Of a stretch of 51,205 bases of DNA, positions 19,520 to 19,816 are shown one piece after another (position 1 is the first letter of the stretch; the number at the start of each line of letters is the position of its first letter). Below the pieces are notes generated by a model. The model was not told the origin of the DNA. It searched no databases and worked only from the letters and a program-made list of their open reading frames with translations. The position numbers and the translations under genes are program-made. Origin of the DNA: an uncultured Cellulomonas sp. (lineage in GTDB: Bacteria > Actinomycetota > Actinomycetes > Actinomycetales > Cellulomonadaceae); NCBI RefSeq assembly GCF_947494015.1, contig NZ_CANLTL010000021.1, forward strand, positions 1 to 51,205, given 5' to 3'.

Positions 19520-19577
19520 CCGAGCGCGACGTTGTGGACGGTTCGCGACTCCTGGACGGTCCGAGACGTCGCACTGG
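19520..19577. repeat. Palindromic intergenic repeat, degenerate copy 1
   Basis: Imperfect inverted repeat whose left arm contains GAGCGCGACGTTGTGGAC. Same family as 51073-51131. It lies just after the pncA stop codon. Confidence 0.6.
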
Positions 19578-19613
19578 ACGGGCTCGGCGAGCTGAGCGGG
19601 TCCGAGTCACCAG

Positions 19614-19675
19614 CCGAGTGAGACGTTGTGGACCCTTGGCGGCACCGGAACGGTCCGGAACGTCACGCTGAGCGG
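19614..19675. repeat. Palindromic intergenic repeat, degenerate copy 2
   Basis: Left arm contains GAGTGAGACGTTGTGGAC; the right arm is GGAACGTCACGCTGAGCGG-like and diverged. Runs directly into the 9-bp tandem array. Confidence 0.55.
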
Positions 19676-19759
19676 GCCGAGCGGGCCGAGCGGGCCGAGC
19701 GAGCCGAGCGAGCCGAGCGAGCCGAGCGAGCCGAGCGAGCCGAGCGGGCCGAGCGGGCC
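19670..19759. repeat. Tandem array, 10 copies of a 9-bp unit
   Basis: Ten perfect-length units GAGCGRGCC in the order 3 x GAGCGGGCC, 5 x GAGCGAGCC, 2 x GAGCGGGCC. The grouping shows unit-level duplication. The stretch 19514-19825 holds no gene: only this array and the three palindromic repeats. Confidence 0.9.
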
Positions 19760-19816
19760 GAATGAGACGTTGTGGACCGTACGCGGGAGCTGAAGCGTCC
19801 CGAACGTCGCACTCCG
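19758..19816. repeat. Palindromic intergenic repeat, degenerate copy 3
   Basis: Left arm contains GAATGAGACGTTGTGGAC; the right arm contains AACGTCGCACTCCG. It ends 10 bp before the rsmI stop codon. Confidence 0.6.

Follow-up and report, generated by a model that had tools for sequence, protein, structure and literature searches.

Dispersed 55-bp palindromes in Actinobacteria are linked to a gene for a putative AbiEi-DUF559 nuclease

Palindromes at the pncA-rsmI locus

The window analyzed here is a 51,205-nt stretch of DNA from a Cellulomonas sp., and the locus of interest within it is the gap between a pncA-like gene and rsmI, whose convergent arrangement, proposed in a sequence-only reading of the same DNA, is borne out by Isochorismatase and TP_methylase Pfam matches. 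That reading had also placed three imperfect hairpins in the gap and an intact copy at the right end of the window, and both placements agree with what we find: 55-bp palindromes begin at 19522, 19616 and 19760, an intact one occupies 51075-51129, and a partial copy follows from 51158. Its description of the gap as built wholly of hairpins holds for the three palindromes but not for positions 19670-19761, which are a 9-bp tandem repeat in 10.2 copies. The features are listed below, where R1 denotes a covariance model made from 41 copies of the Cellulomonas sp. genome and C. aerilata.

18908..19513, + strand: pncA-like gene (Isochorismatase, Pfam PF00857, E 4.5e-23); putative start
19522..19576, strand not applicable: palindrome copy 1, 55 bp, imperfect; found by the pattern with two arm mismatches; R1 match C21:19514-19584, E 1.3e-11
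19616..19670, strand not applicable: palindrome copy 2, 55 bp, imperfect; R1 match C21:19608-19678, E 1.6e-10
19670..19761, strand not applicable: 9-bp tandem repeat (minisatellite) GAGCGAGCC/GAGCGGGCC in 10.2 copies, separating palindromes 2 and 3; outside the element
19760..19814, strand not applicable: palindrome copy 3, 55 bp, the poorest fold (z -0.48); R1 match C21:19752-19822, E 1.2e-9
19826..20836, - strand: rsmI gene (TP_methylase, Pfam PF00590, E 1.7e-30), convergent with the pncA-like gene; longest open reading frame, putative start
51075..51129, strand not applicable: palindrome copy 4, intact, fold z -6.72; R1 match C21:51067-51137, E 7.3e-13
51158..51205, strand not applicable: palindrome copy 5, truncated at the contig end; 100% identity to copy 4 over the part present

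R1 recovers copies 1-4 with E values of 1.2e-9 to 7.3e-13 on the better strand, values that come from a model built partly from the very copies it recovers. RNA-folding z-scores for the same four copies were -2.25, -2.66, -0.48 and -6.72, and the third of these values indicates that copy 3 is too degenerate for good folding. The core GACGTTGTGGAC, allowing up to two mismatches, has 23 matches in the window compared with 7.5 expected, a count reached by none of 100 shuffles. The stem of copy 4 extends about 3 bp beyond the 55-bp core, with arms at 51072-51096 and 51108-51132, and copies 4 and 5 are units one and two of a tandem array with an 83-bp period (51046-51205). Contig C27 opens (C27:17-71) with the same 55-bp palindrome sequence as this array, and the assembly therefore probably broke inside the array at the end of the contig studied here. 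At the Rfam gathering score the window matches two tRNAs only, and a comparison with annotated plasmids gave no DNA similarity. On the rsmI side of the gap, the RsmI_C match of the gene product falls under the curated Pfam cut-off.

A dispersed palindrome family

The window hairpins are members of a dispersed, REP/MITE-like palindrome family without an open reading frame of its own. R1 gives 137 strand hits in the Cellulomonas sp. genome, equivalent to at least 69 places, which is a lower bound because 150 of 10889 first-look candidates were scored. The exact-arm pattern occurs at 15 distinct places in this genome, all of them 55 bp long, and is present in three of 59 genomes (Cellulomonas sp., C. 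fimi SB and C. aerilata), all from one genus. A scan of species genomes yielded at least 111 stretches with the palindrome, a lower bound whose taxonomic make-up is not a census; many of the stretches listed come from Aeromicrobium and other Propionibacteriales, several from Frankiaceae MAGs, and some from Cellulomonas, Georgenia, Microlunatus, Mycolicibacterium neoaurum and Humitalea.

A further model, R2, has matches in 19 of the 22 genomes searched. Its copy numbers, taken as strand hits divided by two, with values near 75 being lower bounds, are about 63 in the Cellulomonas sp. genome, 30 in C. aerilata, 48 in Microlunatus, 44, 25, 36, 39, 26, 23 and 25 in seven Aeromicrobium-type genomes, 73 and 66 in two Frankiaceae MAGs, and 1 to 10 in the remaining genomes with matches; the genomes G037, G041 and G117 gave no R2 match. 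The sequence-only reading had taken the element to be an ORF-less repeat family with no named counterpart. R1, R2, the exact pattern and the species scan between them recover copies elsewhere in the genome and in relatives, Rfam gave no match for the element, and no named family appeared among the literature matches listed.

A single copy was observed in Humitalea rosea (L097 5880-5933), on a 6.3-kb contig of a proteobacterial record; its inner stem is AT-rich, and the genome is without a homolog of the protein described below. Transfer, chance and contamination are the options for its origin.

Palindrome anatomy, arrays and covariation

Each palindrome has 12-bp outer arms, GAGTGYGACGTT, that are alike across all groups compared, and an inner stem that is specific to the species or lineage, with flanking bases that prolong the stem. 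Its length is nearly always 55 bp: among 208 loose matches, a count in which overlapping loci recur, lengths of 55 bp and 56 bp account for 179 and 19, respectively. Paired columns covary across species (0.417 compared with 0.155 shuffled, and far above slid controls), and since the query for this set required exact arms, so that arm conservation is built in by design, only the inner and flanking columns count as evidence of covariation. Copies within Cellulomonas gave the opposite outcome, with no covariation, and many copies there may thus be decaying.

Arrays with a 72-bp period occur on several Cellulomonas sp. contigs, and the linker measured 17 bp at all eight junctions inspected (seven in Cellulomonas sp., one in C. 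aerilata), with a sequence that differs between arrays. The same period, with 17-bp linkers unlike in sequence, was seen at loci L004, L006, L009, L011, L014, L016 and L158. The constant period and the unlike linkers suggest a spacing rule for neighboring copies; other C. aerilata arrays have a wider spacing than 72 bp.

Placement of the palindromes between genes

Gene context was assigned with a simple caller based on codon scores, which failed to detect rsmI in the window, so all counts in this section are rough. By these calls the 138 clusters classed, which come from several genomes, include 124 intergenic ones, of which 62 are in convergent, 54 in tandem and 8 in divergent gaps, and 14 that lie inside genes; 11 more clusters fall at edges. 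All gaps of at least 40 bp in the same loci number 434, of which 109 are convergent, 250 tandem and 75 divergent. Where a gene ends towards a cluster, its stop codon is a median of 22 bp away, and most copies are close to gene 3' ends.

This proximity to stop codons, together with the covariation of the stem across species, could point to RNA elements that act as bidirectional terminators or as stabilizers of mRNA 3' ends, in which case the link to a nuclease-type gene described below would be secondary. We consider such a function quite improbable. TTTT within 18 nt was found at none of 173 copies, against a background of just 0.3% in these GC-rich loci; G-T and A-C mismatches on the sense strand of tandem contexts number 100 and 84, giving no clear RNA-level asymmetry; and in tandem gaps the copy is nearer the upstream stop than the downstream start in 32 of 65 cases, which is no bias. 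An RNA role would also leave unexplained that the palindromes follow the type of the associated protein (see below). The structural-RNA role entertained by the sequence-only reading is therefore not borne out, and the placement is better explained by avoidance of promoters and genes than by a terminator or RNA function. An intrinsic terminator, considered as a candidate by itself, was rejected on the absence of a T run after the hairpin.

The palindromes bracket a gene

In several loci two palindromes stand about 1.1 kb apart round one open reading frame, and the gene that they bracket encodes an AbiEi-like and DUF559-like protein. The gene is on another contig than the window, which is why the sequence-only reading missed it. 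With the C. aerilata protein as query, one homolog was found in the Cellulomonas sp. genome, on C18 from 417 to about 1367-1376, and palindromes spaced 72 bp apart lie on either side of it, with starts at about 112-120, 184-192 and 256-264 on the left and at about 1435-1443, 1507-1515, 1579-1587 and 1651-1659 on the right.

A profile of seven bracketed proteins, A3, detects homologs in 21 of 22 palindrome-bearing genomes, Humitalea being the one without. We then scored the best homolog of each genome in a set of 24, made up of these 22 together with Cellulomonas sp. and C. aerilata. Palindromes of the 55-bp type flank it on both sides in 14 genomes, some of them counted with 3-4 arm mismatches: Cellulomonas sp., C. 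aerilata, LF-bin-25, A. massiliense, PE09-221, Root495, IC_218, the LacPavin MAG, CnD17-E, A. phragmitis, BP_197, BP_195, LS_ISSM_2 and M. neoaurum. Two genomes have a palindrome on one side (Georgenia, and CP_BM_ER_60, where the gene is at a contig edge), and eight have it on neither (A. camelliae, RYN_187, Dino_bin23, Dino_bin33, Microlunatus speluncae, KLAP17, C. fimi SB and Humitalea). Unbracketed isolates still carry palindromes, about 5 in A. camelliae, about 48 in Microlunatus speluncae and 8 in C. fimi SB. In the eight unbracketed genomes the gene may have been lost or the assembly may be incomplete, several being MAGs, or these genomes may be evidence against a functional pairing.

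Palindrome and gene are thus linked; the gene is chromosomal, and its bracketed copies usually number one or two per genome. Among the loci fetched, a second homolog bracketed on both sides is present in at least four of the 14 genomes (A. massiliense, IC_218, CnD17-E and M. neoaurum), and in each of the four its palindrome type is unlike that of the first. The gene adjoins a pseudouridine synthase gene in PE09-221, the LacPavin MAG and A. massiliense, the three checked by Pfam, and has other neighbors in Root495.

The AbiEi-DUF559 protein

The bracketed open reading frames form one protein family of about 280-350 aa. At a Pfam E value of up to 0.01, AbiEi_1 or AbiEi_4 matches the N-terminal part of three of ten proteins and DUF559 or MTES_1575 (restriction-endonuclease-like) the C-terminal part of nine of ten, with all of the MTES_1575 and some of the DUF559 matches under the curated cut-offs; in four bracketed open reading frames the DUF559 matches had E values of 0.013 to 9.8e-6, two of the four being above the curated cut-off. 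Pfam gives DUF559 as a domain of unknown function. The AbiEi models of PADLOC match all eight proteins scanned, at E values up to 0.01 and in some cases weakly, and NCBIfam returned one sub-threshold match among eight proteins. The nearest solved structures by profile are 3hrl (endonuclease-like, E 0.0024) and PvuRts1I (E 0.0073), and profile similarity extends to 3r3p, a mobile intron protein, at E 0.12. Catalytic-type residues, which in L051 numbering are E213, D247, E258, D260 and H264, are conserved in 26-28 of the 28 units flanked on both sides. From these profile matches, several of which lie below curated cut-offs, the C-terminal domain is predicted to be of the PD-(D/E)XK, Vsr-like nuclease type, so that the protein probably cuts DNA, and the AbiEi-like N-terminal part would, by its family name, be of a DNA-binding type. 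Values of dN/dS were 0.12-0.21 in three close-species protein pairs, which we read as a signature of purifying selection, and 0.25-0.61 in six other pairs.

The protein shares its C-terminal profile and the E...D...ExD...H residues with Vsr-like/EDxHD homing endonucleases and DUF559 proteins (3r3p, 3hrl), but differs from these homing endonucleases in its AbiEi-like N-terminal part. To our knowledge, neither Vsr-like/EDxHD homing endonucleases nor DUF559 proteins are known to be bracketed by dispersed palindromes. Its N-terminal similarity is to AbiEi antitoxins of type IV toxin-antitoxin systems, from which it differs by fusion to a nuclease-type domain and by the palindromes on both sides of its gene. 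Carriage by mobile elements was considered and rejected; distant homologs of the protein are found on six plasmid records and one phage record.

AbiEi antitoxins bind inverted repeats at their own promoter, and the N-terminal matches (Pfam 3/10, PADLOC 8/8) would suit a repressor for which the palindromes are operators, at its own gene and across a regulon, with the nuclease-type domain serving a defense or toxin-antitoxin-like role. We regard this as unlikely, as dispersed copies are, by the rough gene calls, rare in divergent gaps (8, compared with 62 convergent and 54 tandem, when 75 of the 434 gaps are divergent), and palindromes occur on the downstream side of the gene and in arrays as well.

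Other palindrome types beside homologous genes

A3 was run over 149 Actinomycetota genomes with up to 14 candidates scored per genome, and 43 of these genomes, Cellulomonas sp. included, have homologs at E values of up to 1e-8, with 144 matches in all. We examined 90 of the 144 loci, 60 of them mostly best-scoring. The survey proper comprises 88 loci, which were not chosen for palindromes, after L197 (from Cellulomonas sp.) and L210 (in which the gene was unplaced) had been left out. The sequence lying no more than 350 bp from the gene, 60.7 kb in all, has 43 palindromes with a score of 12 or higher, and the 186.4 kb farther away has 11, a 12-fold difference in density (p 2.8e-17) whose test treats loci as independent when they are not fully so, many coming from three genomes of one genus. 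At a score of 18 there are 17 palindromes near the gene and one farther away. At least one near palindrome is present at 34 of the 88 loci; under a slightly wider rule, nine loci have a palindrome on each side, 25 on one side and 54 on none. Left and right palindromes are alike in six of the nine two-sided loci, with 77-84% identity compared with a cross-unit maximum of 52%, and unlike in the other three. Some near-gene palindromes resemble plain terminators.

The full set of 127 units brings together Cellulomonas sp., the palindrome-bearing genomes, relatives from the C. aerilata-protein search and the phylum survey; 28 have palindromes on both sides, 35 on one side and 64 on none. Left-right identity averages 76% within units compared with 43% across units, and in 19 of the 28 two-sided units the best match for the left palindrome is the unit's own right palindrome. 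Palindrome similarity follows protein similarity (Mantel r 0.43, n 63, 0/999 permutations). Bracketing on both sides rises with the A3 score and reaches 11 of 12 at scores above 300, a rise that is partly expected because A3 was made from bracketed proteins.

Three palindrome types beyond the main 55-bp one were examined for dispersal, and they differ in its extent. In the one-contig genome G037, a homolog is bracketed by a 64-bp palindrome of different sequence, which occurs at 15 places of 60-64 bp (the query included), one of them being the place that brackets the gene. The L254 palindrome type occurs at eight places in G041, two of which bracket the gene, and is absent from G037 and G117. 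The palindrome tested in M. neoaurum is almost confined to the gene, occurring as the bracketing pair and at one further place. The extent of dispersal therefore varies between types.

The genomes G117, G152 and G173, all of one genus, hold 10-13 AbiEi-DUF559 homologs each, several of which lie beside different palindromes of their own. Long near-perfect palindromes were also noted at L226 1160-1212 and L164 664-729, more than 350 bp from a DUF559-type gene.

How copies change between species

We compared 15 orthologous palindromes from two Aeromicrobium-type species pairs with a local identity of about 87-95%. The outer arms differ at 13 of 360 positions (3.6%), the inner stem at 72 of 330 (21.8%), the loop at 47 of 135 (34.8%) and the 200-bp flanks at 683 of 5782 (11.8%). 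On these substitution counts the outer arms are clearly under constraint; because the flanks take in the ends of coding sequences, the inner stem may simply be evolving at a neutral rate. The same 15 sites hold 16 compensatory pair changes compared with 2.6 in simulations that relocated the 3' changes (0/2000), and when the most changed pair is left out, 9 compared with 1.2 (again 0/2000). At one orthologous site, L310 4738-4792 and L321 217-271, most of the outer arms is kept and the inner stem is wholly different yet largely self-complementary.

For 30 of 32 query rows, a palindrome with up to two mismatches was refound in the partner species, a figure that counts reciprocal rows twice and overstates conservation of place because the target regions were picked around palindromes. 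Their presence at the same places in close species indicates that spread is slow or old. Between the species pairs no clean empty site was found; two sites are occupied in one species only, both with other changes nearby. At the second unit of A. massiliense and IC_218, flanks that are about 93% identical enclose a cassette that is inverted and whose protein is only 48% identical, a cassette exchange bounded by the palindromes.

This exchange between palindromes also counts in favor of a selfish or homing-type cassette, a palindrome-gene-palindrome unit mobile in the manner of an IS, with solitary palindromes as its footprints and no gain for the host. The profile similarity to 3r3p and 3hrl, the near-confinement of the M. 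neoaurum palindromes to the gene and the different gene neighbors in Root495 argue for such a cassette, and the idea overlaps with the explanation that we prefer. Against it, bracketed copies number just one or two in each genome, the gene keeps its position next to a pseudouridine synthase gene in all three genomes examined by Pfam, and purifying selection together with conservation of the arms at orthologous sites suggests upkeep. We judge such a cassette unlikely.

Discussion

The arrangement described here resembles the REP-RAYT system in several respects. Dispersed intergenic palindromes, at no fewer than 69 places in the Cellulomonas sp. genome, are accompanied by a cognate enzyme gene that is flanked by two of them (14/24 genomes); orthologous genes hold their place as the flanking palindromes change yet stay palindromic, as described in PMC2817692; and the palindromes are placed between tandem and convergent genes, as in PMC3733652. 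It differs in that the bracketed protein matches DUF559/MTES_1575/AbiEi and not the Y1 HUH family (PF01797), that the palindromes measure about 55-64 bp in the families most closely examined compared with 20-40 bp for REP, and that no GTAG tag was seen, CGTC being visible by eye only inside the paired arm and the ends being paired. Dispersed intergenic palindromes that bracket one gene are the hallmark of REP-RAYT (PMC2817692), and one may ask whether these are ordinary REPs or REPINs that a RAYT mobilizes, or else MITEs derived from a known IS, beside a gene that neighbors them by chance. We hold this to be very improbable. The Cellulomonas sp. genome has no match to Y1_Tnp (PF01797), the sole transposase family searched, in a search that matches five of 14 control genomes; the 55-bp element with its paired ends is unlike a REP; and bracketing in 14 of 24 genomes is very unlikely to arise by chance. 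Membership of REP-RAYT was rejected for want of a Y1 transposase match, and on present evidence the system works like REP-RAYT without being a member of it.

CGTC-tagged REPs, as described in PMC3733652, are likewise palindrome families without a known HUH partner; they have 8-9 bp stems and an unpaired CGTC end and occur mostly in alpha-Proteobacteria, and a search of that paper for the terms 'Actinobacteria' and 'Mycobacterium' found neither. In a literature search that covered few subscription journals and preprints, none of the matches listed joins DUF559/AbiEi proteins to palindromes by title or abstract. A repeat with a bracketing enzyme gene is thus a known arrangement, and on present evidence what is new here is the unrelated type of enzyme.

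We consider it reasonably probable that the window hairpins belong, as dispersed copies, to a palindrome-nuclease couple, in which the nuclease would drive the upkeep and spread of the palindromes to which its gene is linked. The AbiEi-like part of the protein would recognize the two constant 12-bp outer arms at their fixed distance, in a target that may take the form of the 55-bp palindrome or of a cruciform, and the nuclease part would nick or cut this structure. Repair, whether it draws on another copy or proceeds by fold-back synthesis, could then keep the arms complementary and leave the inner stem and loop free to change. The same repair might occasionally seed new or tandem copies, and would permit inversion or exchange of the bracketed cassette. 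What the data establish is the linkage of palindrome and gene, the dispersal, the constrained outer arms, compensatory changes in inner stems at orthologous sites and a single cassette exchange. Counting against such a couple are the 54 of 88 survey loci without a nearby palindrome and the mere nine with one on each side, three of these with unlike palindromes, the eight of 24 genomes in which the gene is unbracketed, the near-confinement of the M. neoaurum palindrome, the mostly shared positions of copies in close species, the lack of covariation within Cellulomonas and the failure to find a clean empty site.

A broader proposal, to which we give slightly less than an even chance, is that a REP-RAYT-like system arose independently in Actinobacteria, with a PD-(D/E)XK nuclease of Vsr-like type and its AbiEi-like DNA-binding part in place of the HUH transposase. 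Each nuclease lineage would seed its own fixed-length palindrome through the chromosome and maintain the complementarity of its arms by cutting and by fold-back or copy-templated repair, and the enzymes would form a new, phylum-wide class that maintains palindromes. The partner DNA sequence gives many of the AbiEi-DUF559 homologs, present in 43 of 149 genomes, a predicted substrate. If the proposal is true, unrelated enzymes would on at least two occasions have given rise to dispersed palindromes with a bracketing enzyme gene, and REP-RAYT would be an instance of convergent evolution. A candidate class of enzyme would also be suggested for repeats with no known transposase, such as the CGTC-tagged REPs. 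Long palindromes are usually unstable in cells, and these families would then offer a natural system for studying how cells maintain them.
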